This document shows positions 35,596 to 50,691 of a stretch of DNA of 64,000 nt, one piece after another (position 1 is the stretch's first letter; each line of letters starts with the position of its first letter). Where the stretch lies: positions 1 through 64,000 of the forward strand of contig JHUT02000015.1 of assembly GCA_000690595.2 (NCBI GenBank), in the 5' to 3' direction. Under the pieces are notes generated by a model. It was not told the origin of the DNA. It saw only the letters and a program-made list of their open reading frames with translations, and did no database searches. Both the position numbers and the translations under genes were made by a program. Origin of the DNA: Natrinema mahii (GTDB lineage: Archaea > Halobacteriota > Halobacteria > Halobacteriales > Natrialbaceae).

Positions 35596-36384
35596 CTAGC
35601 GGCCGACGAACTCGGGCTCGCCGTCGTCGAAGAAGGCATCCAGACCGCGCTCGTAGTCCGCCGTTCGGGTCGCGTCTGCGATGCCGTCAGTCTCCGCCGC
35701 GAGCTGTTGCTCGAGCGAGCGCTCGTAGCTGTCGGTCAGCAGTCGGGTCGTCGTCCCGAACGCCGCGGTCGGCCCTGCCGCCAGTTCGGCGGCGAGTTCG
35801 GCCAGCCGGTCGTCGAATTCGTCGCTGGGGACGACCTCGTTTGCCAGTCCCAGCTCGTGGGCCTCCGCAGGGCTGATGGGGTCGTCTTTCAGGACGAGTT
35901 CCTTGGCGGCTCGCAGCCCGACGAGCCGCGGCAGGAAAAAGGTCGCGCCGCCGTCGCCGGTCAGGCCGATTCCGGGATACGCGAATGTGAGCGTCGCGTC
36001 CTCGCCGAGGACGAGCAGGTCCGGGAACAGCGTCAAGCTAAAGCCGATCCCGGCGGCGATGCCGTTGACGCCGCCGACGATCGGCGTCTTCGTCCGGTGG
36101 AACTGGACGATCGCTTCGTGAGCCCGTCCGGCCAACTCTCGGATGTGGGCCGCATCGGACTTGTCACCGGAGAGCGCGCCGAGGTCCGCGCCGGAGCCGA
36201 AGAAATCGCCCGCATGCGTGAGAACGATACACCGCGTGTCGGGGTCCTCACCGAGGGTCGTCGCCGCCGACACCAGTTCGTTGGCCATCTCGAGTGTGAG
36301 CGCGTTTCGCCCGGCAGTACTCTCGAGGGTCACCGTTGCGACGCCGTCGTCGTGATCGATCGAGAGGTTGTCGTATGCAACCAT
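35596..36384 (-). CDS. Enoyl-CoA hydratase/isomerase family protein
   Basis: Crotonase-fold protein of 262 residues, expected to hydrate crotonyl-CoA or a similar enoyl-CoA, or to shift its double bond. The oxyanion-hole segments are visible (GDFFGSGADL; GGVNGIAAGIGFSLTLFPDLLV), as is the segment AYPGIGLTGDGGATFFLPRLVG. The Asp in GLTGDGG resembles PaaG-like isomerases more than classic hydratases with a Glu there, so the exact activity is open. Convergent with iclR. Confidence 0.85.
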   Translation of the reverse strand: MVAYDNLSIDHDDGVATVTLESTAGRNALTLEMANELVSAATTLGEDPDTRCIVLTHAGDFFGSGADLGALSGDKSDAAHIRELAGRAHEAIVQFHRTKTPIVGGVNGIAAGIGFSLTLFPDLLVLGEDATLTFAYPGIGLTGDGGATFFLPRLVGLRAAKELVLKDDPISPAEAHELGLANEVVPSDEFDDRLAELAAELAAGPTAAFGTTTRLLTDSYERSLEQQLAAETDGIADATRTADYERGLDAFFDDGEPEFVGR

Positions 36385-36458
36385 CGGATCGGTATTTGAC
36401 GTAATCTCGCTTAACGGTTCCTGCTTTGTCGGTTCGAGAACGGGGCTCGGCCCCGTCT

Positions 36459-36540
36459 ATAGTAGCTCTTGAAAGTCACTACACACCCGATCGCAGGACA
36501 GCATTGTGATCGGTGTGTAAATCGTTTCAAGAGCTACTAT
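36459..36540 (+). mobile_element. 82-bp palindromic element, copy A
   Basis: Begins ATAGTAGCTCTTGAAA and ends TTTCAAGAGCTACTAT, a perfect 16-bp terminal stem. Inner half-sites are AGTCACTACACACC on the left and GTGTGTAAATCG on the right. Its last 14 bases lie inside the CoA-transferase gene and supply that gene's stop codon and its final three Ser codons. Confidence 0.88.
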
Positions 36541-38095
36541 CGATCGCGTCGGTCAGGTCGAGCGGCTCGTCGGCAAACAGTGCGGGGTTCATCTCCGCGA
36601 GATCGTCGGCCACGAGCGGCTCGAAGCCCAACTGATCGAGCACGTCGGCTTCGAGGTCGATCCCGGGCGCGACCTCCGTGAGTTCGAGGCCCTCGGGGGA
36701 GAGCTCGAAGACCGCGCGCTCGGTCACGTAGACGATCGGCTGGTCGATTTCGACGGCGTACTCGCCGCTGAACGTGATCTGCTCGACCGAGTCGACGAAC
36801 TTCGAACTCGCGCCGTCGTTCTCGATCGAGAGTTCACCGTCGCCGGCCTCGATTTCGAGGCCGTCGGTCGTCAGGGTGCCACAGAAGACGACCTTCTCGG
36901 CGTTTTGCGTGATGTTGATGAAGCCGCCACAGCCGGGGAGCTGCGAGCCGAACCGGCTGACGTTGATGTTGCCCATCGCGTCGACCTGTGCCATCCCCAG
37001 AAAGCCCATGTCGAGGCCACCGCCGTCGTAGAAGTCGAACTGCTGGGTCGAGGAGACCAGCGCCTCGTGGTTGACGGCGGTCCCGAAGCTGATGCCGCCG
37101 GAGGCAGCGCCGCCGACCGGTCCCGACTCGACGGTCTGGGTGATCTCGTCTGCGATGTCGCCTTCGGCCGCAACCACCGGGACGAGTTCCGGGACGCCCA
37201 CGCCGAGGTTGATGACCGAATCCGGCTCGAGTTCCATCGCCGCCCGGCGGGCGATGATCGTCCGCTCGTCGAGCGAAAGCGGCTCGCTGTCGTCGTCGGT
37301 CGGTTGCTTGATCTCGCCGCTGTAGGCGGGGTTGTAGTCTTCCGCGTACGTCTGCTGGTGGTGACTCGGCGGCGCTTCGACGACGGAATCGACCAGCACG
37401 CCGGGGACGGCCACGTCGCGGGCGGTGAGCGTGCCCGACTCCGTGACGCGCTCGACCTGGGCGATCACGGTGCCGCCGGAGTTGTGGGCGGCCTGGGCCA
37501 TCGCCAGCACGTTCGAGTCGAGGGCTTCCCGCTCCATGGTGATGTTACCGTTCTCGTCGGCCGTCGTCCCCCGGATGATCGCCACGTCGATCGGCACCGA
37601 GTGATAGAAGAGATACTCCTCACCGTCGACGGTCATGACCTCGACGATGTCCTCGTCGGTGACGTCGTTGGCCTTCGCGCCGTCCTGACGCGGATCGACG
37701 AACGTTCCCAGCCCGACGTGGCTGAGCGTGCCGGGTTTGCCCGCGGCGGTATCGCGAAGCAGGTGATCCATCACGCCGAAGGGGAGGTTGTAGGCCTCGA
37801 TCTCGTTGTTGACGACCTTCGCCATCAGGTCGGGCGTAAAGCCCCAGTGGCTCGCGATCGTGCGCTCGAGCATCCCCTCTTGGACCAGATGCGAGAGCCC
37901 ACGCCCCTGCCGGTCGCCTTCTGCGGCGGGATGATAGAGGGTGAGATCGCGGGGCTGGCCCGTTTCGGCGTATCGCTCGCCGAGTGCCTCGAGAACGTAT
38001 TCGGGAATCCCGACGGCGACGAAGCCGCCGACGCCGACCGTATCGCCGTCGTCGATACGTTCGACTGCCGCCTCTCTGGACTGTCGAATCGTCAT
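36527..38095 (-). CDS. Acyl-CoA:carboxylate CoA-transferase (fused alpha-beta)
   Basis: Family I CoA-transferase with both halves in one chain, 522 residues. Alpha-half landmark GVGGFVAVGIPEYVLEAL; beta-half NLGVGVPELV and the catalytic Glu323 in TVESGPVGG, which carries the CoA thioester. It moves CoA between short acyl groups, for example from acetyl-CoA to a free acid. The stop codon and last three Ser codons come from palindromic element A, so the original C-terminus has been replaced. The change is short and outside the catalytic region, so activity is probably kept. Confidence 0.87.
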   Translation of the reverse strand: MTIRQSREAAVERIDDGDTVGVGGFVAVGIPEYVLEALGERYAETGQPRDLTLYHPAAEGDRQGRGLSHLVQEGMLERTIASHWGFTPDLMAKVVNNEIEAYNLPFGVMDHLLRDTAAGKPGTLSHVGLGTFVDPRQDGAKANDVTDEDIVEVMTVDGEEYLFYHSVPIDVAIIRGTTADENGNITMEREALDSNVLAMAQAAHNSGGTVIAQVERVTESGTLTARDVAVPGVLVDSVVEAPPSHHQQTYAEDYNPAYSGEIKQPTDDDSEPLSLDERTIIARRAAMELEPDSVINLGVGVPELVPVVAAEGDIADEITQTVESGPVGGAASGGISFGTAVNHEALVSSTQQFDFYDGGGLDMGFLGMAQVDAMGNINVSRFGSQLPGCGGFINITQNAEKVVFCGTLTTDGLEIEAGDGELSIENDGASSKFVDSVEQITFSGEYAVEIDQPIVYVTERAVFELSPEGLELTEVAPGIDLEADVLDQLGFEPLVADDLAEMNPALFADEPLDLTDAIDSSS

Positions 38096-38233
38096 ACCTC
38101 ACTCTCGCGGGAGCCGCTACTTTTAGTTACCTATCTCAGCGCCACGCCGCCGTAACAAGCGCTCGCACCGGTATCGACGACGTTCCCACAGCTGAATCGT
38201 ACGCTTTACTATCCCACCCCCGAATCAGTGTGT

Positions 38234-39358
38234 ATGGAGCTAACAGACAATCAGCAGCTGATACGGAACACCGTCCGTGAGTTCGTCGAGACGGAAGTCG
38301 GCGAGACGGTCGACGAACACGACGCGGCCCAGACGTTTCCGGAAGACGTCTGGGACGGGCTCGCGGAACTCGACCTGACCGGGCTCACGGTCCCCGAGGA
38401 GTACGGCGGGTTCGACGCCGACGAAGTGACCTACAGCATCGTCAACGAAGAGATTGCGCGGGGGCATCTGGCAGTTGCGACGGCGCTGTCGGTCCACTGT
38501 CTGGCCACCTCGTGTATTCGCCAGTTCGGCACCGAGGAACACAAAGAGGAGTGGCTGCCGAAGATGGTCGACGGTCGCCCCGTCGGCGCGTTCGCGCTCT
38601 CGGAACCCGACGCCGGCTCGAACCCGGCCGAGATGAGTACCGAGGCCCGCCTCGAGGACGGCGAATACGTCATCAACGGGAAAAAACAGTGGATCACGAA
38701 CGGCAAACGTGCGGGCGTCGTCATCCTGTTTGCGAAGACCGACCGCGACGATCCCGACACCGTGACCCAGTTTCTGGTGCCCAAGGACACGCCCGGACTC
38801 GAGATCGGCAAGAAAGAGGACAAGCTCGGGCTGCGTGCCAGCGACACCACGACGCTGCTTTTCGACGATGTGCGGATCCCCGAAGAGAACCGCCTGACTG
38901 AGGTCGGCGACGGGCTCAAGGCCGCGTTCTCGATCCTGACCGGTGGCCGGATCGCGATCGCCAGTCAGGCCGTCGGCGTCGCCCAGGCGGCGCTCGACGC
39001 TGCCGTAAGCTACGCCAACGAACGCGAACAGTTCGGCGAGCCGATCAGCAACCATCAGGCGATCGCCCACAAGCTCGCGGACATGCAGACGAACGTGCAG
39101 GCAGCACGCCTGCTGACGCGTGACGCCGCCCGGAAAAACGACGGTGGCCTCGATCCGCAGGCAGCGAGCATGGCGAAGTACTTCGCCAGCGAGACGGCGG
39201 TCGACGTCGCAAACGAGGCGGTACAGGTCCATGGCGGCTACGGCTACACCAAGGACTTCGACGTCGAGCGCTACTACCGCGACGCCAAGATCACCACGAT
39301 CTACGAGGGGACCTCCGAAATACAGAAGGAGGTTATCTCGCGGCACTTAACCGAGTAA
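38234..39358 (+). CDS. Acyl-CoA dehydrogenase, short-chain type
   Basis: Flavoprotein dehydrogenase of 374 residues that forms the alpha-beta double bond of an acyl-CoA and passes electrons to ETF. N-terminal helical domain, the FALSEPDAGSNPAEMSTEA and GKKQWITNG beta-domain signatures, and the catalytic Glu in IYEGTSEIQ near residue 359, as in short-chain (butyryl-CoA) enzymes. ATG at 38234 is preceded by a TATA-like TTTACTA 28 bases upstream. Divergent from the CoA-transferase gene, both within the acyl-CoA island. Confidence 0.92.
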   Translation: MELTDNQQLIRNTVREFVETEVGETVDEHDAAQTFPEDVWDGLAELDLTGLTVPEEYGGFDADEVTYSIVNEEIARGHLAVATALSVHCLATSCIRQFGTEEHKEEWLPKMVDGRPVGAFALSEPDAGSNPAEMSTEARLEDGEYVINGKKQWITNGKRAGVVILFAKTDRDDPDTVTQFLVPKDTPGLEIGKKEDKLGLRASDTTTLLFDDVRIPEENRLTEVGDGLKAAFSILTGGRIAIASQAVGVAQAALDAAVSYANEREQFGEPISNHQAIAHKLADMQTNVQAARLLTRDAARKNDGGLDPQAASMAKYFASETAVDVANEAVQVHGGYGYTKDFDVERYYRDAKITTIYEGTSEIQKEVISRHLTE

Positions 39359-39367
39359 CGCGACGCG

Positions 39368-40231
39368 TTACTCGTACTCGTAGAAGCCGCGGCCAGTCTT
39401 TTTGCCGAGTTCTCCCGCTTCGACCTTGCGCTTGAGGAGATAGGCCGGCTTGTACCGATCACCTAACTCCTCGTGGAGCGTCTCGGAGGCGTGGAGACAG
39501 ACGTCGAGGCCGATGTGGTCGGCCAGCGTCAGCGGCCCCATCGGCACGTTCGTCCCCAGTTCCATGCCCGCGTCGATGTCCTCCTTCGAGGCGACGCCCT
39601 CGTCGTAGGCGCGGATCCCCTCGTTGATCCAGGGCATCAGGATGCGGTTGGTGACGAAACCGGGCTTGTCGTCGGACTCCCAGGTCGTCTTCCCGAGATC
39701 CTCGGCGAACTCGTGTGCCAGCGCGGTGACGTCGTCGGCGGTCTTCTCGCCGACGACGATCTCGACGCCCTCCATCACCGGGACGGGATTCATGAAGTGC
39801 AGCCCGACGACGGCCGCCGGTCGCTCGGTCGCGCTCGCGATCGAGGTAATCGAGAGCGTACTCGTGTTCGTCGCGAGGACGGCGTCGTCGCGACAGGTCT
39901 CGTCGAGATCGGCGAAGATGTCGCGTTTGATCTCGAGGTCCTCGACGGCAGCCTCGACGACGACGTCGCAGTCGGAGAGGTCCTCGAGGTCGGTCGTGCC
40001 GGTGATCCGGTCGCGGGCCGCGTCGGCTTCGTCCTCGGTCAGAGCGTCTCTGCTGACGAGTCGACCGAGACTGTCGTCGATCGTCTCGAAGCCACTGTCG
40101 ACGAACTCCTGTTCGACGTCGCGCATGACGACGTCGTAGCCTGCCGTTGCGGCGACCTGTGCGATACCACTGCCCATCGTGCCAGCGCCGACGACGCCGA
40201 CACGGTCGATCGTCTCTACGTCTGCAACCAT
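39368..40231 (-). CDS. 3-hydroxyacyl-CoA dehydrogenase
   Basis: NAD-dependent dehydrogenase of 287 residues, size of the stand-alone 3-hydroxybutyryl-CoA dehydrogenases. Rossmann motif VGAGTMGSGIAQVAA at the N-terminus, catalytic His in GLHFMNPVPVM, and the C-terminal helical domain with FVTNRILMPWINEGIRAYDEG. It oxidises 3-hydroxyacyl-CoA to 3-ketoacyl-CoA. Convergent with the dehydrogenase gene (nine bases apart). An extra Met codon just before (40234) is possible. Confidence 0.93.
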   Translation of the reverse strand: MVADVETIDRVGVVGAGTMGSGIAQVAATAGYDVVMRDVEQEFVDSGFETIDDSLGRLVSRDALTEDEADAARDRITGTTDLEDLSDCDVVVEAAVEDLEIKRDIFADLDETCRDDAVLATNTSTLSITSIASATERPAAVVGLHFMNPVPVMEGVEIVVGEKTADDVTALAHEFAEDLGKTTWESDDKPGFVTNRILMPWINEGIRAYDEGVASKEDIDAGMELGTNVPMGPLTLADHIGLDVCLHASETLHEELGDRYKPAYLLKRKVEAGELGKKTGRGFYEYE

Positions 40232-40361
40232 CATTCCGTGGTGGTCGGACTGTCGTAGTAAATGTCCCGACTCTCGTCAGTGACGGAACCGACGGTCACA
40301 ACCACCCGCCGTCGTCCGATACAGCTATACCGCACGAACTGAGACGTAGTGGTGATACCCA

Positions 40362-41528
40362 ATGTCACAGGTGCAACTCGCCGGCACAGGCATGACGACG
40401 TTCGGGTCACATCCCGATCGGACGGGCAGGGATATGTTCGCAGACGCCGGGCTCGCCGCTCTCGAGGACGCCGGCGTCCCGGCTGCGGACGTCGACGAAC
40501 TCTTTTACGGCAACTTCGTCGGCACCCTCTCGGAAGGACAGGGCCACCAGGGGCCGCTCATGGCGGAGGCGTTCGGGACGACCGCCCCCTCGCGCCGAAT
40601 CGAAAGCGCGTGTGCCTCGAGCGGGCTCGCGGTCCACGATGCCGTGCGTGCGATCCGCAGCGGCGAGTCCGATGTCGTCGTTGCCGGCGGTATGGAGCGG
40701 ATGACGAACATGGGGACGGCTGGGGCGACGAAGGGGCTGGCCAGCGCGGCCGACGACCTCTATGAAGTCCGGGCGGGTGTCACCTTCCCCGGCGCGTACG
40801 CGCTGATGGCACGGGCCTATTTCGACGAGTACGGCGGTACCCACGAGGATCTGGCCCATATCGCGGTCAAAAATCACGACAACGCACTCGCCAACGACCA
40901 CGCTCATCTCCGACAGGAGATCACGGTCGCGGACGCACTCGAGGCGCCCGAAATCGCGTCCCCGTTCACGCTGTACGACGCCTGTCCGATCAGCGACGGG
41001 GCGGCCGCGATCGTCTTGGCCTCTCCCGAATACGCCGCGGAACACGACCTCGAGGCCGACGTAGCGATTACGGGCGCCGGCCACGGCGGCGATACGATGG
41101 CGTTGCACGATCGCCAGTCGCTCTCGAAGACGCCTGCGACCCGCGACGCTGCAGTGGACGCCTACGACGACGCCGACGTCGACCCCAGCGATATCTCCGT
41201 CGCGGAGGTCCACGACTGCTTTACGATCGCCGAAGTCCTCGCCCTCGAGGCGCTCGGCCTCTACAGTCACGGCGAGGCGATCGGGGCAGCCCGCCGCGGC
41301 GAGACGTGCCGTGACGGCGAGTTGCCGGTGAACCTCTCCGGCGGCCTGAAAGCGAAGGGGCATCCGGTCGGCGCAACCGGCGCTGCCCAGGTGGCCGCCG
41401 TCGCGACGCTGCTCGACGGCACCCATCCGCGGGCCGACGCCGTCGACGACGCCACGGTCGGCGTCGCCCAGAACGCTGGTGGAACCGTCGCCAGTGCGAC
41501 CGTTCACGTTCTGGAGGTGATGGAGTGA
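40362..41528 (+). CDS. SCPx-type thiolase
   Basis: Thiolase of 388 residues. The nucleophile is Cys84 (ESACASSG), with His in EVHDCFTIAE and GGLKAKGHPVGATG. This HDCF form marks SCPx-type thiolases, which in archaea act together with a DUF35 partner; in the archaeal acetoacetyl-CoA system HMG-CoA synthase also joins. It cleaves 3-ketoacyl-CoA to acetyl-CoA or performs the reverse. Its stop overlaps the DUF35 start (TGATG), the usual coupling for this pair. Confidence 0.9.
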   Translation: MSQVQLAGTGMTTFGSHPDRTGRDMFADAGLAALEDAGVPAADVDELFYGNFVGTLSEGQGHQGPLMAEAFGTTAPSRRIESACASSGLAVHDAVRAIRSGESDVVVAGGMERMTNMGTAGATKGLASAADDLYEVRAGVTFPGAYALMARAYFDEYGGTHEDLAHIAVKNHDNALANDHAHLRQEITVADALEAPEIASPFTLYDACPISDGAAAIVLASPEYAAEHDLEADVAITGAGHGGDTMALHDRQSLSKTPATRDAAVDAYDDADVDPSDISVAEVHDCFTIAEVLALEALGLYSHGEAIGAARRGETCRDGELPVNLSGGLKAKGHPVGATGAAQVAAVATLLDGTHPRADAVDDATVGVAQNAGGTVASATVHVLEVME

Positions 41529-41914
41529 TGACGGACGTGACCAACGGCGAGTACGACGCGTTCCTCGAGGCGCTTGCAGCGGGCGAAGGCTACTACCGCA
41601 ACTGCGAGAACGGGCACGGCCTGCTGCCGCCACGGCGTGTCTGCCCGCACTGTGGCGATCGCAATCTCACGGAGCGGGACCTCCCGTCGGCCGGCGACAT
41701 CGTCACGCACACGACCGTGTCCGTTCCGACGCCGCAGTTCGAAGACGAGGCCCCCTACGTCACCGCCGTCGTCGACTTCGACGGCGTCCGACTCACGGGA
41801 ATCGTGCGGGGCATCGATCCGGAAGCCGTCGAAATCGGCGACCGCGTCACCGCGACCGTCGAATCCACCGAGACTGACGGCAAGCGGACGATCGTCTTCC
41901 GCCCGGCAGAATAA
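41528..41914 (+). CDS. DUF35 OB-fold protein, thiolase partner
   Basis: Protein of 128 residues: an N-terminal zinc-ribbon-like part (NCENGHG and CPHCGDRN, one Cys of the first pair replaced) and a C-terminal OB fold (VTHTTVSVPTPQFEDEAPYVTAVVDFDGVRLTG). In archaea DUF35 proteins bind CoA between thiolase and HMG-CoA synthase and channel the intermediate. No HMG-CoA synthase gene is nearby, so here it may serve catabolic thiolysis. Overlaps the thiolase stop. Confidence 0.85.
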   Translation: MTDVTNGEYDAFLEALAAGEGYYRNCENGHGLLPPRRVCPHCGDRNLTERDLPSAGDIVTHTTVSVPTPQFEDEAPYVTAVVDFDGVRLTGIVRGIDPEAVEIGDRVTATVESTETDGKRTIVFRPAE

Positions 41915-41962
41915 CGGAGCCACTTCGCGATACGACACCCACTCCAGCGGGCGTCGGCCCGG

Positions 41963-43600
41963 CTACAGGCCGTGTTTTTGCTGTTCTTCCTTGCGGAGTT
42001 CGACGCGGCGGATCTTCCCGCTCGAGGTCTTGGGGAGTTCGTCGGTGAACTCGATCCGGCGGGGGTACTTGTAGGGGGCCGTTTCGTCTTTCATGAACGA
42101 CTGTAAGTCGTCTTTCAGTTCGTCGGTGCCCTCGTAGCCTTCAGCGAGGATCACGTAGGCCTTGACGACGCTGCCGCGTTCTTCGTGTGGACTGTCGACG
42201 ACGGCGGCCTCGGCGACGGCGTCGTGGGTGACGAGGGCGTCCTCGACCTCGAAGGGACCGATGCGATAGCCCGACGAGATGATGATATCGTCGGCCCGGC
42301 CTTCGAAAAAGAAGTAGCCGTCCTCGTCGCGGGAGGCGAGATCGCCCGTGCGGTAGTAGTCGCCGGAGAGTTTCCGCTCGTCGAGGTCGGGTTTCTCGTA
42401 GTAGCCGTCGAAGATCGCCGGCGAGTCGATCGGCACGGCGATCTCACCGATCTCGCCGGGTTCGACCGCTTCCTCGTCGTCGACGTCGATGATCGTCGCG
42501 CCGACACCGGGCGTCGGCTTGCCCATGCTGCCGGGCTTGACGTCGATCCCGGGGTAGTTCGTCACCAAGGCGACGGTCTCGGTCTGGCCGTAGCCGTCAC
42601 GCGGGGTCACGCCCCAGGCGTCCTGAATGCGCTCGATCGGTTCACGGTTGAGTGGCTCGCCCGCCGACAGCGCGTCGTTGAGGGTGACATCGTAGTCCTC
42701 GAGGTCGGCGTTGGCGAACATCCGGTACTGGGTCGGGACGGCACAGAGTTTGGTGACGCCCTCGTCTTCCATGAGCTCGAGGAACGTGTCGGGCTCGAAC
42801 TCGCCGTCGTAGATGAGTTGGGTCGCTCCCGTCGTCAGGCCGACGCCGACCGGGCTCCAGAACCACTTCGCCCAGCCGGTCCCCGTGGTGGCCCAGAGCA
42901 GTTCGTCCTCGAGGTCGGTGTCCGCGTCGACACCCCACCAGTAGGGGGCGTTGATCCGGTTGAAACAGTACTGCCAGCGGTGTTTGTGCAACACCGGTTT
43001 GGGCTGGCCGGTCGTTCCGCTGGTGTAGTTGATCGTCATCGGGTCCTCGGCAGCCAACTCGGGGCCGTCGTAGTCGGTCGACTCCTCGGCCATGACGTCC
43101 GCGACCGTCGTCCAGCCTTCGCCCTGCAGGTCGTCTTCGGAACCGTCGAGGACGATGACCCGCTCGAGTGGGGTCTCCTCGAGTACCGGTTCGACCATGT
43201 CGGTCAGCGATTCGTGGACGACGATACTCGTCGCGGTACAGTCGTCGGCCCGGAACGCGATATCTTTCGAGCGCAGCATCGACGAACAGGGGACCAGCAG
43301 CGAGCCGGTCGCCAGCGCCCCCAGTTGGATCGCAAACGCGTCGGGATGGCGCGGGAACAGGTGCATGACCCGATCGCCCTCGGTGACGCCGAGGGACTCG
43401 AGGCCGTTGGCAAAGCGGTTCATGTCGTCCCGGATGTCGGCGTAGGTCCGTTCCTCGCGGGCCCCCTCGTCGTCCAAGAACCGGACGGCAACGCGATCGC
43501 CGACCGAGTCGGCGTGATCCGTGACGACCGACGGGATCGCATACGAGTCCGGAATGTCCCACTCGAAGCTGTCTGCTTCTGTAGTGTAATTAACACCCAT
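41963..43600 (-). CDS. Acyl-CoA synthetase (AMP-forming)
   Basis: Adenylate-forming ligase of 545 residues that activates a free short- or medium-chain acid to acyl-CoA. Motifs: phosphate loop INYTSGTTGQPK, DGYGQTE, the hinge region with SGDYYRTGDLASRDEDGYFFFEGRADDII, and C-terminal Lys in PKTSSGKIRR, the adenylation lysine. I start at ATG 43600 (MGVNYTTEADSF); the ORF extends further upstream but not protein-like. Substrate is not fixed by these motifs; isobutyrate or another short acid would fit the neighbours. Confidence 0.88.
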   Translation of the reverse strand: MGVNYTTEADSFEWDIPDSYAIPSVVTDHADSVGDRVAVRFLDDEGAREERTYADIRDDMNRFANGLESLGVTEGDRVMHLFPRHPDAFAIQLGALATGSLLVPCSSMLRSKDIAFRADDCTATSIVVHESLTDMVEPVLEETPLERVIVLDGSEDDLQGEGWTTVADVMAEESTDYDGPELAAEDPMTINYTSGTTGQPKPVLHKHRWQYCFNRINAPYWWGVDADTDLEDELLWATTGTGWAKWFWSPVGVGLTTGATQLIYDGEFEPDTFLELMEDEGVTKLCAVPTQYRMFANADLEDYDVTLNDALSAGEPLNREPIERIQDAWGVTPRDGYGQTETVALVTNYPGIDVKPGSMGKPTPGVGATIIDVDDEEAVEPGEIGEIAVPIDSPAIFDGYYEKPDLDERKLSGDYYRTGDLASRDEDGYFFFEGRADDIIISSGYRIGPFEVEDALVTHDAVAEAAVVDSPHEERGSVVKAYVILAEGYEGTDELKDDLQSFMKDETAPYKYPRRIEFTDELPKTSSGKIRRVELRKEEQQKHGL

Positions 43601-43787
43601 ACGCTGGCAATCAAAACGCGCAATCTTGAATCTTTTGTTACAATTGGTAATTTCTCTCACCCACGTGTTCAATAGCTGGCCCACTCCCGATGTCGGCCGC
43701 CGACTCCACCTGTCGGTTGTCACTCTCGCCGAAAAGTCGCCTCGAGCGGCACAACATTTTAGAAGAGTTGCATCTATATGCTAGACA

Positions 43788-45485
<1,698 letters not shown>

Positions 45486-45616
45486 GCCGGTCTCCCGTCG
45501 GCTGTCGCTTCCCACCGATTCCCGAGCCCGTCGTTCCCCGGTCGGAAGCGCCGTTTCGACGGTCAAAACTTGGTGACTCCGATAGAACCATACGGTTCCC
45601 CTTCGAACCGAGATCC

Positions 45617-46039
45617 ATGGGTATCGAGAACGATGAGCGGACGATTCGGTGTCTGGTTGCAAAGGTCGGTCTCGACGGCCACGACCGTGGCGCACACGTT
45701 ATTTCCCGAGCGTTCCGTGACGCCGGCTTCGAGGTCATCTACTCCGGACTGCACAAGGCACCCGACGACATCGTCCAGGCTGCGGTGCAAGAAGACATCG
45801 ACGTCCTCGGCATCTCGATTCTCTCCGGGGCACACGATACGCTCGTCCCGAAAATTATGGACGGCCTCGAGGAATACGGCGCGAAAGCGGAGACGCTCGT
45901 ACTCGTCGGTGGCGTGATTCCGGAGGAAGACCGCGACGAACTCAAAGCGGCAGGGGCTGGTGCGATCTTCGGTCCCGGAACGTCGATCGAAGAGACCATC
46001 GACTTCGTCCGGAAAAACGTCTCCGACGACCGTGTTTAA
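45617..46039 (+). CDS. icmB: B12-binding subunit of the acyl-CoA mutase
   Basis: Cobalamin-binding protein of 140 residues. DXHXXG is present as Asp20, His22 and Gly25 (KVGLDGHDRG); this His replaces the lower ligand of cobalt. SILSGAH and LVGGVIP complete the nucleotide-binding fold. It docks on the catalytic subunit encoded 131 bases upstream. I start at MGIENDERTI; the larger open frame upstream is shadow of the preceding gene. Together they interconvert butyryl-CoA and isobutyryl-CoA if the signature is right. Confidence 0.9.
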   Translation: MGIENDERTIRCLVAKVGLDGHDRGAHVISRAFRDAGFEVIYSGLHKAPDDIVQAAVQEDIDVLGISILSGAHDTLVPKIMDGLEEYGAKAETLVLVGGVIPEEDRDELKAAGAGAIFGPGTSIEETIDFVRKNVSDDRV

Positions 46040-46155
46040 TTACGAATGAAGTAAGCGGTAAGAGTAGCGCCGCGTCGGTTGATGGGGCTCGGTGTTCGCC
46101 TCCATTTTCCCGAAGTATCGCTTTCGAATACTGCTCGGGTATTGGAGGGGTTTGA

Positions 46156-46623
46156 TGTCGACCGATCGCCCACGGCTGTCGACGAGTGGGGTACAGAAAG
46201 CCGATCTACAGCCCGCGGCTGAGACGAATCCGAATCACGTCGCGCTCGACGAAGCCGTGATTCAAATCGGCGCTCACCAGTATTGGCTGGCCGCTGCAGT
46301 GGGTCCGGAAACAAACAAAGTCCTCCATACACGACTATCTTCGACGACTACGACCGCATTGACTGAACGGTTTCTGTGGGAACGACTCGAGAACCACGAT
46401 GTCGAAGTTACGGTGTTTCTCGTCGATGGTGCACAGCATCTCCAGGCAACACTCCACCGGCACGGGCCCAAATTTCGATACGAAAAACGGGAATCGGAAG
46501 AGTATCAAGCATATCTTTTGAGAGAGAAAACGACGTACCTCTTTATTCTCAAACTAATTTAGTTCTATTAAACAACCAATCGCGGAGTCATGGCTCTATG
46601 TCTTCGCCATCCGGCAGAATGCG
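46156..46623 (+). pseudogene. IS6-type transposase remnant
   Basis: Reads like the middle of a haloarchaeal IS6 transposase: NPNHVALDEAVIQIGAHQYWLAAAVGPETNK, then LSSTTTTALTERFL and VTVFLVDGAQHLQATLHRHG, with the first catalytic Asp and probably the second. It then loses frame. AESWLYVFAIRQNA at 46582-46623 matches the C-terminal end of the family. The N-terminal third is missing. Inactive. Confidence 0.7.
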
Positions 46624-46687
46624 ACAACCCAGACACGACCACCACTTGACCCCGAGGCGGTTCACGACTACATCGGGACGGAGAGCT

Positions 46688-46769
46688 ATAGTCGCCGCTG
46701 ACAGTCATTGCACATCTGCTCGCACGACGGCGTTGCGATCAGTGTGTGAATCGTTGCAGCGGCTACTAT
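46688..46769 (+). mobile_element. 82-bp palindromic element, copy B
   Basis: ATAGTCGCCGCTGACAGTCA at the left, GCAGCGGCTACTAT at the right. The GCCGCTG/CAGCGGC stem pairs; the seventh base of the left tip departs from the usual ATAGTAG. Half-sites AGTCATTGCACA and GTGTGTGAATCG are in forward order. Lies between the IS6 remnant and the PduS-like gene. Confidence 0.85.
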
Positions 46770-46839
46770 ACCACGAGACCGGACTGATCTTCCGTTTGGG
46801 TTCGCACCGTCGTCCGGAAACGACGACAGCCGGTGAGGA

Positions 46840-47985
46840 CTATCTGGGGCAGTTCGCTTCGCACGCGGCTTCGACAGTGATCTCGATGCTCGTCTCGGTG
46901 ACGGCAGTCACTTCACCGTCGACGGAAGCGTGGTGCGGAATGCCGATCCCCTTCGACGGCGACGTCGCAACGACCGTCCCGGCTTCGACGCGATCGCCGG
47001 GTTCGACGGTGGGTATCCCGGGACTGACTGTCCCTTCGAAGTCCGGATTCGTGAGAAGCGGGATGCGAACGATATCCGGTTCGATCGTCGCCGTCGGTTC
47101 GGTCTCCATCGGTCCGGCCGTCCAGTCACGCGATTCGAGAACGTCAATCCGGCCGTCGCCGAGCGTGTTGTCCGCGACAGTCGATTCGTCCAGCACCAAC
47201 AGCCCGTTCGTCGACTTATCGACCACGAACTCGTCCGGCGACGTCTCAACCTCGAAACACCAGCCGGGACCGCCCGAGACGAGTACTGCGTCCGACGGGA
47301 GCTCGTCCGGCGGGCGACCTGCGGCCGACAGGAGCGCGCTCGCGGGTGTCCCGATCGGGACCTCGAGGAACCGATGTTGCGGGACAGCCCCGTCGACGTG
47401 GACGTATGTGTGCGTAACCGGGGTCCCGTCAGTCAACGCCCGGTAGATGTTAGCCATCGTTTCGGTGTTCTGGACGAGCCAGCCGTGATCGGTCGGGAGG
47501 TCGCTGCCGATCACAGTGTCGCTAACGATGTTGAGGAGGACGCTTTCCATCCCGTACTGGTATTGAGCGTCCGTGTATGCGAACACGACACCGGATTCGT
47601 TCTCGATGTCAAGCGGCAGATCATCCGGCGGAACCACCGTCCCGTTGGTCTCGGCTTCCAGTTCGGTCATGTATTCGTCCCGATCCGTCCACTTGGCGCT
47701 GACCACCACGGCTTCGAACGTGTCCGCAAGCAAGGCGTCGAACAGCGCCGCGAACGCAGTCGCACGTGACTTCCCGAGCCACTTGTCAACGAAGAAGTTC
47801 GGTTCGCTCTCCTGGTGGTTCACCAGCAGATAGTCCGTCGAAGCCACCTGCTCCCACTTCGCATAGGACGGGAACCCGGCGCCGCCCGCGCCCGCGATAC
47901 CGGCGTTTCGAATCCGTTCGACACCGTCGCCTCGCATCGACGGCCAGTCCGATAACCGGTCGGGCTGAAGCACCTCTTGTGTCAT
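46840..47985 (-). CDS. PduS/RnfC-like flavoprotein, possible cobalamin reductase
   Basis: Protein of 381 residues. The N-terminal part has the RnfC/PduS/NuoF nucleotide-binding segment (IRNAGIAGAGGAGFPSYAKW, then LLVNHQESEPNFFVDKWL), followed by an SLBB-like stretch and a C-terminal barrel-sandwich domain (IPTVEPGDRVEAGTVVA, HHASVDGEVTAVTE). Placing the barrel at the C-terminus matches PduS, the cobalamin reductase of B12-dependent diol metabolism, more than RnfC. No CXXCXXC clusters are present, unlike in both. Encoded 0.8 kb from a B12-dependent mutase, a role in keeping its cobalamin reduced is attractive but unproven. Confidence 0.7.
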   Translation of the reverse strand: MTQEVLQPDRLSDWPSMRGDGVERIRNAGIAGAGGAGFPSYAKWEQVASTDYLLVNHQESEPNFFVDKWLGKSRATAFAALFDALLADTFEAVVVSAKWTDRDEYMTELEAETNGTVVPPDDLPLDIENESGVVFAYTDAQYQYGMESVLLNIVSDTVIGSDLPTDHGWLVQNTETMANIYRALTDGTPVTHTYVHVDGAVPQHRFLEVPIGTPASALLSAAGRPPDELPSDAVLVSGGPGWCFEVETSPDEFVVDKSTNGLLVLDESTVADNTLGDGRIDVLESRDWTAGPMETEPTATIEPDIVRIPLLTNPDFEGTVSPGIPTVEPGDRVEAGTVVATSPSKGIGIPHHASVDGEVTAVTETSIEITVEAACEANCPR

Positions 47986-48281
47986 AACGATCAGTACTAC
48001 ACGTCGATCGTGAGTACGAATTCTGCCGCATCAGAGAGGCTATTTTTATACCATCCATTGAGATACTGTGACAATATCGCAAACAAAGACAACGGACATT
48101 GTATTTCGCTCGAGCAGTCTCACCGTCTCCCGTCGGTCAACAGTCCACTGCAAGTGTCTTGCACTCCGACACCCGCCTCCGAGCGAATCAATGAGACGTT
48201 CCTCCAGACCCAGTCAGTCCGGAATACGACTGCAGGGGCATGTTCGTGTGATTCACAGCCGACGATGGTCTCGTTAGGGCT
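47986..48281. other. Gene-free stretch
   Basis: Should contain the promoter of the PduS-like gene (start 47985); the AT-rich segment TATTTTTATACC at 48041-48052 on the plus strand is a possible TATA region for it. Nothing else is evident before palindromic element C. Confidence 0.4.
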
Positions 48282-48363
48282 ATAGTAGTCGCTGAAACGA
48301 TTTACACACTGATCACAGCGCTGTCGTGCGATCAGGTGTGCAATGACTTTCAGTGGCTACTAT
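48282..48363 (-). mobile_element. 82-bp palindromic element, copy C
   Basis: Reverse orientation. Tips ATAGTAGTCGCTGAAA and TTTCAGTGGCTACTAT; the two unmatched stem positions would both be G-U pairs in RNA. Lies in a gene-free stretch downstream of the HTH_10 gene. Confidence 0.86.
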
Positions 48364-48483
48364 AGTGATCGCTCCCCGATCCATGGATTGGTTGTTGCAT
48401 GCGATATCTCACGGTCGTAGGCAAACCACACGGAGAGGGTGCATTCCATCCACTCGGGGAGAAACTGACAGATGAACCTTCGA

Positions 48484-48828
48484 TCAATCGAAGGGCCATT
48501 CATGACGCTGCGAAACGAGTGCTTCGACGAGTTTCACGTCAGCTTTCCGGAGATGTTCGCTGACGGTGTTAGGCACACACCCAAGTTTAGCGGCTAATTC
48601 CGCGTGTGTTGTCTCTCGAGGATGTCGATAGTACCCGTGTTTAAACGCGGTATGAACGGCTTCACGCTGCCGATCGCTCAACTCGGAAAACGGGTCCGTT
48701 CGTACCGAAGGGCGTGACCCGATTTCTTCGATAGTCACGTCGATCGTACTGGGCGCGGTGTCAATTGCAGTTTGAAGTGCCTCAGCGTCTCCCACCACCT
48801 CACCTCTCGTTTCGAAGTCGCTGTACAT
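48484..48828 (-). CDS. HTH_10 (bacterio-opsin-activator) regulator, N-terminus uncertain
   Basis: The C-terminal half is a clear HTH_10 domain: FSELSDRQREAVHTAFKHGYYRHPRETTHAELAAKLGCVPNTVSEHLRKADVKLVEAL. Just before it, EVVGDAEALQTAIDTAPSTIDVTIEEIG matches the linker of about 215-residue haloarchaeal regulators of this type. The usual N-terminal sensory half is not recognisable; the frame is open to 49053 but that part is unlike the family. Either the gene is truncated to 114 residues or its front half has diverged or decayed. Confidence 0.6.
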   Translation of the reverse strand: MYSDFETRGEVVGDAEALQTAIDTAPSTIDVTIEEIGSRPSVRTDPFSELSDRQREAVHTAFKHGYYRHPRETTHAELAAKLGCVPNTVSEHLRKADVKLVEALVSQRHEWPFD

Positions 48829-49140
48829 CACAGGGGATCTAACGGGTAAGTTGGATGTCGCCCGCGATTTGCCGAAACGTGGCCCCACCCAGTTACGTGG
48901 GCGACTCGCGTTCCAGTCGATCAGGGACGGCGTTTCGTTCTGAAACGGAAGAAACGAGGCGTGCTCGACAACAACCCACCCAGTTTCTGCCGATATGTCA
49001 GCCACTCGGCTGCGTGGTCGCTGTCGCCAGTTGCTCTCGAGTGCGTTCGGCACGATGATCGTCTCGCTCCGGGTCCGATCACGGCTCCATGCTTGCCGCC
49101 CGCTTGTGGAACGCTGCCCGCCGCTGCTTGTTCCGGTTGG

Positions 49141-50455
49141 TTAGTTCGTCGGAAGCCGTGCTACGCCACCGCGGTCGCGATAAGAAATGTACAGCGCGCC
49201 AGCAGCCGTCGTCACGCCGATCCGGGAGGACTCCGCATCGTACCGCCATCGGCGCTTCCCGGTGGCAGGGTCGTAGGCGGCGAGTTCCTCGTCGCTGGCC
49301 GCAAAGAGGATCTCACCGGCACGGCCGAATGCCTCGACCGTCCCGCCGATCGCGATGTCAGTCGTCGTCTGCCACCGCCGGGTTCCATCGAGGGCGACGG
49401 CGTCCAGCCGGATTAGAAGGCCACCGTCGGGATCGCCGACCGAACTCGCGACGAACACGCCTTGTGGGGTCGTCGTCACCGTCTCGAGTTCGTATCCAAC
49501 AGTCCGTCGCCACCGTACGGTCCCCCCATCGCGATCGATGGCGACCAACTCGTCCGAGCGATCATCGCGCCGGACACACACGTAGACGTGCTCGCCAAGC
49601 CAGACTGGCGGCCCGAAGTGGCTCGTCACGTCGCCGTCAACTGCGATCCGCCACAGGACGTGCCCATCGTGGGCCCGGCGCATCCGCACGGTAGAATTGC
49701 GGACCGTTACGATCCGGTCGCCGGCAGCCACGACGTAGGGGTAGCTATAGTAGCCACTGACAGTCATTGCACACCTGATCGCACGACAGCGTCGTTATCA
49801 GTGTGTGAATCGTTTCAGTGGCTACTATAGTACGAGGTGGCGATTCCCATAGCACCTCGCCGGTCGTCGGTGCGAGCGTAACCAACTTCGTATCGTCAGC
49901 CGAGTTCGTGACGGGGAAGAGACAGGCCGAATCACTGAGCGTGGGGAACGGATACGCTCGGCCGGATCGCTGGAAGCGACGGGTGCCGTCGCGCGCATCG
50001 TAGCCGGTGACCACACCGCTGCCCGGATCGAGGTCGACCAACAGCGAGCCGTGTCGACCGAGCCACCCGTTTCGGGCCTGTCCCTCCACGTGCCACAGGC
50101 GCTCCCCTGAGAGCCCGACCGTGTAGCGGTCGCCATCGGTGCTGTGGACGTGGACCGGACCGCCCGATGACGGGACAGCCGGTCGCGCCTCGATTGGACC
50201 ACCGGTTTCGACGGTGAGAACCCGCTCCCCGTCGGCCGTGAACCCATGGAGGCGTTTGTCCTGTCCACCGACGACGACGTGTTCGTCGGTCGCGGACGGC
50301 GGACTCGTCGCCATTGCGTCCGGGCGGTCACGCTCCCAGCGGGGTTGAACGCCGGACAGCGCCGACCGCAGGCTGCACCCTGCCAGCGTAAGTGTGCCCA
50401 CCGACGCGAGCCAGCCAAGAGCTGCCCGGCTGCGGTCATGGCGACGGACGACGGC
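49141..50455 (-). pseudogene. PQQ-type beta-propeller lipoprotein gene split by element D
   Basis: Outer-surface lipoprotein of about 400 residues with repeated PQQ-like blades (DATYDPATGKRRW-like units: ELAAYDPATGKRRWRYD, AIDRDGGTVRWRR, GEVLWESPP). The first half (50455 to 49829) reads RAALGWLASVGTLTLAGCSL at its N-terminus, a lipobox, but has no in-frame start codon. Palindromic element D (49747-49828) then breaks the frame after GEVLWESPPRTI; the second half resumes as YPYVVAAGDRIVTV. The element also offers an ATG (MTVSGYY) from which the second half alone could be translated. Confidence 0.75.
49747..49828 (+). mobile_element. 82-bp palindromic element, copy D
   Basis: Tips ATAGTAGCCACTGACA and TTTCAGTGGCTACTAT, forward half-sites. 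Inserted inside the PQQ-propeller gene. The sequence on both sides reads through as one propeller protein when the element is left out, which shows insertion rather than coincidence. Confidence 0.9.
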
Positions 50456-50577
50456 TCACGGAACTCCGTCTTCCACGACCGTTGGATGGGAAACGACTCC
50501 CCATCGAGGAGACCAGCGCACCCTGCGACGCCGCCAACGAAACCGGTGACTGCGCCGAGGGCCACACGGCGCGTCAT
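50450..50577 (-). pseudogene. Tat-lipoprotein N-terminal fragment
   Basis: MTRRVALGAVTGFVGGVAGC is a full Tat lipoprotein signal (Cys20), followed by about 25 residues (LLDGESFPIQRSWKTEFREPSS). The frame then stays open but stops looking like protein, just where the propeller gene begins in another frame. It may be the front of a second lipoprotein gene whose body was deleted, or the displaced start of the propeller gene. Confidence 0.5.
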
Positions 50578-50691
50578 GGAGGGCATGTGTCCACCGTTCC
50601 GACGGCGGTGATATCAGTCTTGATCTTCGAGCGACAACTACTGCCAGTCGAGGGGTACAGAACTGGCAGTGTCAGGAGAGATACCCACATA

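Follow-up and report, generated by a model that had tools for sequence, protein, structure and literature searches.

The window analysed here, 64,000 nucleotides of Natrinema mahii (contig JHUT02000015.1), carries a gene for a 381-residue flavoprotein on its reverse strand, at 46840–47985. The genes of a B12-dependent mutase and an IS-family remnant lie on one side of it and a truncated regulator on the other. The features of the locus are as follows.

43788..45485, (+): large subunit of a B12-dependent mutase (PF01642, 715 bits); not judged functionally linked to the flavoprotein
45617..46039, (+): B12-binding small subunit of the mutase (from sequence reading and tblastn conservation)
46092..46562, (+): remnant of an IS-family transposase, read by eye as an IS6-type fragment, between the mutase and the flavoprotein gene
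46768..46771, no strand: rearrangement junction between the mutase block and the flavoprotein block (split matches in genome G004)
46840..47985, (-): FMN oxidoreductase-like gene with the PduS/RnfC core and without the ferredoxin module (381 aa; Pfam, AlphaFold (AF2) model, dN/dS)
46873..47073, (-): C-terminal barrel-sandwich hybrid domain without any conserved lysine, residues 305–371 (Pfam RnfC_N at 321–370, E 1.2e-5)
47074..47181, (-): conserved linker, residues 269–304, where PduS has a two-cluster ferredoxin module
47182..47406, (-): SLBB-like beta-grasp domain, residues 194–268 (weak Pfam SLBB match, E 0.015)
47440..47913, (-): Nuo51-type FMN-binding domain, residues 25–182 (Pfam PF01512 Complex1_51K, E 8.5e-19)
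47785..47820, (-): NHQESEPNFFVD motif, residues 56–67, predicted NADH/flavin site (N56, Q58, E59, S60, E61 and D67 invariant in 44/44 family sequences)
48396..48503, (+): HTH_10 regulator with only its truncated 5' end, 35 codons (a divergent regulator is conserved in the gene's clade)

The open reading frame starts with ATG and has zero internal stops. It is a real gene kept by purifying selection, with a dN/dS of 0.17 against the 94% identical orthologue of the closest relative (G004) and 0.19 against that of G003. Residues 194–268 align with the SLBB region of RnfC and PduS, and G276, R279, W288, E294 and P303 of the linker are conserved in the family alignment. The AF2 model (pLDDT 90.2, pTM 0.89) returned RnfC as the top Foldseek match (E 1.8e-16), and VIA-align superposed model range 11–270 on RnfC 8ahx over 240 residues (Z 24.9, rmsd 2.6 Å), an alignment that hardly covered the barrel-sandwich, whose fold rests on the Pfam and profile matches. 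The modelled core is closest to RnfC, and the domain order recovered by profile is that of PduS.

Cysteines occur only at residues 243, 375 and 379, a distribution that leaves no CxxCxxC motif in the protein. The CX3C tail formed by Cys375 and Cys379 was considered as a metal site and rejected, both residues being missing from the 94% identical orthologue. A lipoyl or biotinyl carrier role for the barrel-sandwich was likewise rejected because it has no conserved lysine: the alignment shows no K-rich column after residue 305.

PduS is the sole family among those compared with an identical order of domains, in which an FMN domain is followed by a beta-grasp SLBB domain and a C-terminal barrel-sandwich. 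The family profile matches Salmonella PduS colinearly (114.9 bits), HMM positions 13–268 pairing with PduS 10–243 and 309–369 with PduS 389–449, and the original assignment of the C-terminal barrel-sandwich to the PduS position is upheld by the second of these segments. The PduS cysteines C264, C267, C270, C274, C309, C312, C315 and C320 find no counterpart and fall in an alignment gap: PduS houses two [4Fe-4S] clusters (C264–274 and C309–320) in about 145 residues, whereas the family has about 40 residues there and no clusters. No [4Fe-4S] motif occurs in any of 44 relatives, and the earlier observation that ferredoxin-like CXXC clusters are lacking therefore extends from the window copy to the family. 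PduS contains FMN, reduces flavin in an NADH-dependent manner, and also binds and reduces cobalamin; each single mutant of its cluster cysteines lost cobalamin reductase activity together with FMN (PMC2982820). Because of the latter loss, the clusters' own contribution cannot be read from these mutants. The family also differs from the bacterial PduS in being haloarchaeal only, and the neighbourhoods of about 60 family loci showed no pdu or microcompartment operon.

RnfC/RsxC, an NADH-bound class (PMC11889175), shares the FMN/NADH site with the family and gives the best fold match. However, RnfC has an N-terminal barrel-sandwich, carries two [4Fe-4S] clusters C-terminally and docks on RnfD, and none of these three features is found in the family. 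The Rnf membrane partner (RnfD/E family, PF03116) was absent from 8/8 carriers examined, with positive controls. PrdC, the electron carrier of proline reductase, has the same core (profile match 95.6 bits), but its barrel-sandwich is N-terminal, as in RsxC, whereas that of the family is C-terminal. The FMN and NADH residues of NuoF/Nqo1 (E95, S96, E97 and D103) are kept, although the N3 cluster domain of NuoF is absent, with no cluster cysteine. Of the curated NCBIfam models the best for the flavoprotein is rnfC, at 101 bits against a cut-off of 245.95; neither the PrdC cut-off (490; score 90.7 bits) nor that of NuoF (558.65; score 31.1 bits) is reached. NqrA, a relative of RnfC that has lost both FMN and clusters (PMC9588780, PMC11889175), resembles the family in having no clusters, but the family retains the flavin site.

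In all 44 sequences of the family alignment G29, G32, G34, G35, G37, F38, K43 and W44 are invariant, as are N56, Q58, E59, S60, E61, D67, Y142, G145, E147, N173 and E175. Aligned on motif and spacing, E59, S60, E61 and D67 take the places of E95, S96, E97 and D103 in NuoF. In the Aquifex enzyme, water bridges E95 and D103 to the nicotinamide and E97 to NADH, and the peptide joining E95 to S96 flips at the flavin (PMC6560083). The glycine loop is invariant, as are the acidic residues, and the family has therefore very probably kept its site for flavin and NADH intact; the lack of a flavin site, named beforehand as an outcome that would refute the cobalamin reductase reading, is not what the alignment indicates.

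Whole-genome searches recovered full-length members in 41 of the order's 293 genomes and fragments in three more, and scans of the collection and of plasmids yielded about 50 named haloarchaeal loci. A homologue is present in Haloferax mediterranei (WP_004060600). A single-sequence scan of the collection returned zero relatives; an alignment scan did recover them. Outside Halobacteria, the matches were only RnfC-like or NuoF-like proteins with an N-terminal barrel-sandwich or longer frames. In the tree, all 60 haloarchaeal rows fall on one branch (100/99), and the family is monophyletic and restricted to Halobacteria; the outgroups PduS, PrdC and RsxC have very long branches, which make its placement relative to them unsafe. 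RefSeq annotates the members only as 'NADH dehydrogenase subunit', and the literature searched contained no description of them, making this an uncharacterised family of PduS/RnfC-class flavoproteins without clusters.

The fragmented copies, in three other haloarchaea, are probably pseudogenes (G045:C1:2228876-2229085, G063:C9:73376-73966 and G116:C35:80432-81497). In the genome of the window a second family member, 58% identical to the window copy, lies at C10:94117-95154, and the two are its only PF01512 proteins. Just under half of the 44 relatives end in a CxxC...CxxC ribbon unrelated to cluster motifs. With the pattern YWTWCxECGxY...VCxxCR, this ribbon stands at the C terminus of many members, including the second copy, and is missing from the window copy. 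It matched no Pfam family; it may be a zinc ribbon or a rubredoxin-like electron exit. The subfamily that carries it (subfamily B; L026:9064-10308 and L034–L042) adjoins a shikimate-pathway gene, and several members scattered across the tree are without it.

The mutase small-subunit gene ends at 46039, 801 bp from the flavoprotein gene and convergent with it, so that the description of the flavoprotein as lying beside the mutase was literally true. The transposase remnant at 46092–46562 lies between them, and for this reason the two do not form an operon. Positions 40258–46771 of the window match one locus of G004 (L134, C2 about 189–195 kb) and positions 46768–48134 another (L027, C2 about 134 kb); in this closest relative, the mutase cluster and the flavoprotein gene are 57 kb apart on one replicon (C2). 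The same mutase cluster is present in G006 and G026, with no member of the window's subfamily beside the mutase. Together, the split matches and the arrangement in these two genomes identify the junction at about 46770 as a rearrangement. The flavoprotein gene, which in the window has lost the regulator conserved in its clade, was recently brought next to the mutase by mobile DNA, an accidental proximity; the suggested coupling to a mutase is not supported, given the separation in G004 and the joining of the two blocks at an IS remnant. Functional inference from gene proximity can mislead beside such remnants, and the region around the flavoprotein gene is a mobile-element scar.

Stretches that resemble transposon ends or IS remnants (gctactata...gtcgtgcgatcaggtgtgcaa) occur at 46092–46562, 46700–46830, 48284–48366 and 49745–49830, where they flank the flavoprotein gene and break its neighbours. 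Members of the gene's clade have an HVO_0513_N/HTH_10 regulator, divergently oriented, 130–210 bp upstream (in G004, about 930 bp); the arrangement spans two families, occurring in Natrialbaceae (Natrinema altunense, for example) and in Halovenus, and is missing at L028 and L076. At 48396–49053 of the window, the first 35 codons of one HTH_10 gene (+) run up against the C-terminal half of a second (-), a layout suggestive of inversion or recombination. A PQQ-type beta-propeller gene at 49141–50586 appears to be split into overlapping frames and is probably a pseudogene. On the mutase side, 35596–46039 holds a complete acyl-CoA degradation cluster, whose conservation exceeds 95% in three further genomes from the genus, with a CoA transferase, an acyl-CoA dehydrogenase, a hydroxyacyl dehydrogenase, a thiolase with an OB protein, a ligase and the B12 mutase.

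We propose, with a probability of about two in three, that the protein is a soluble NADH:acceptor FMN oxidoreductase, a NuoF/RnfC/PduS-class enzyme that has lost its ferredoxin module and delivers electrons to an external acceptor. NADH would dock between the glycine loop and the ESE...D residues, in the cleft that they form, and pass hydride to a bound FMN, and the reduced FMN would hand electrons straight to the external acceptor, bypassing internal [4Fe-4S] clusters. That acceptor could be a distinct small electron carrier (a ferredoxin, for instance), perhaps the protein's own C-terminal Cys4 ribbon in subfamily B, or a small molecule, with free flavin and quinone as examples; our best single guess is a ferredoxin in trans. 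Some points count against the proposal. The conserved linker (R279, W288, E294) could cover the flavin or hold a specific substrate, and the chemistry would then be a different one. NqrA, itself an RnfC homologue, demonstrates that the redox cofactors can all be lost. The patchy distribution, in 41 of 293 genomes, argues that the protein is not a core NADH dehydrogenase, and a ferredoxin gene is close in only 2 of about 31 contexts.

In RnfC, PduS and NuoF, FMN electrons pass to iron–sulfur clusters, and NqrA is without both. A family that keeps the NADH/FMN site without clusters would be an intermediate, showing how these modules come apart, and would offer a tractable soluble enzyme in haloarchaea, where complex I is without NuoEFG and how NADH is oxidised is acknowledged to be an open question (PMC8305020).

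The gene contexts bear on the identity of the acceptor, and no single one dominates among the family loci. Tentatively, the protein could be an NADH:ferredoxin reductase, or one serving a P450- or Rieske-type ferredoxin, with a small ferredoxin standing in, in trans, for the deleted module. A Fer4_15 ferredoxin gene (L130:8452-8694; protein WP_179171476) lies about 120 bp upstream of the Halobaculum copy on the same strand, with a Rieske protein nearby, an assembly that might constitute an oxygenase electron chain, and a related Fer4_15 ferredoxin lies about 0.9 kb from the copy of Natronococcus AD-5. Haloarchaeal catabolism is ferredoxin-based (PMC8305020), which accords with such a role. Against it stands the plain count, ferredoxin genes lying within about 1 kb in 2 of about 31 contexts, with none near the window copy.

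A broader and more speculative version of the proposed oxidoreductase would make it a stand-alone, cluster-free NADH:FMN electron-exit enzyme, a PduS type minus its ferredoxin module, that is wired to different acceptors from genome to genome (ferredoxin, acyl-CoA pathways) and possibly fills part of the NADH-reoxidation gap of a complex I without NuoEFG.

Unlikely in our judgement is a role as redox partner of acyl-CoA and 2-oxoacid catabolism generally rather than of the mutase in particular. Genes of these pathways do adjoin several copies: an acyl-CoA dehydrogenase 4–9 bp downstream on the same strand in Salinirussus, 2-oxoacid dehydrogenase genes in Halorussus and Natronococcus, a CoA ligase at Halocatena-type copies, and a thiolase, ligase and mutase in Natribaculum. 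Such genes lie within 3 kb in 5 of 31 contexts, compared with 7.7% in 40 random regions (binomial p 0.09, the gene classes having been chosen after the loci were seen), and the signal is a lead rather than a result. The largest clade, formed by ribbon-bearing Natrialbaceae, instead lies downstream of a 3-dehydroquinate synthase II gene, assigned by eye, at 21 loci.

The function first put forward was that of a minimal cobalamin reductase, in which NADH and FMN would serve to reduce cob(II)alamin and so reactivate the neighbouring mutase. It is now improbable, although it draws on the domain order found only in PduS, on PduS itself binding and reducing cobalamin (PMC2982820) and on a flavin/NADH site predicted to be intact. 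The PduS cluster-cysteine mutants tell against it without being decisive, FMN having been lost as well, and the window proximity is an IS junction. The genome survey of co-occurrence came out flat: the mutase is present in 267 of 293 haloarchaeal genomes (91%) and missing from 6 of 41 carriers and 20 of 252 non-carriers (Fisher p 0.23), with G221 and G287 among the six deduced from their absence in the positive list. Because the mutase is near universal, co-occurrence at this level is uninformative. At closer range, none of 62 contig loci scanned had a mutase within about 9 kb, and across all copies one lies within about 5 kb only in the window and in one separate lineage (three Natribaculum species and G094). 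In that lineage, on three Natribaculum plasmids and in G094, a distant family member is divergent from a thiolase and has, at a distance of about 4 kb, a mutase of 80% identity. This placement inside a mutase/thiolase cluster speaks for the cobalamin reductase and allows a loose acyl-CoA association, but the Natribaculum clade is separate from the window clade in the tree. A B12-reviving role for the flavoprotein is not supported.

Least probable of all is an NqrA-like scaffold or binding protein, an RnfC homologue stripped of every cofactor as NqrA has been of FMN and clusters (PMC9588780, PMC11889175), given the invariant flavin-loop and NADH residues in 44/44 sequences and the absence of any Rnf/Nqr membrane subunit from 8 carriers.

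In two genomes of sulfur-respirer type (those of L045, which is without the mutase, and L108), a family member adjoins a gene for a related membrane protein with weak similarity to a histidine-kinase ATPase (L045:8254-9141 and L108:2056-2967).
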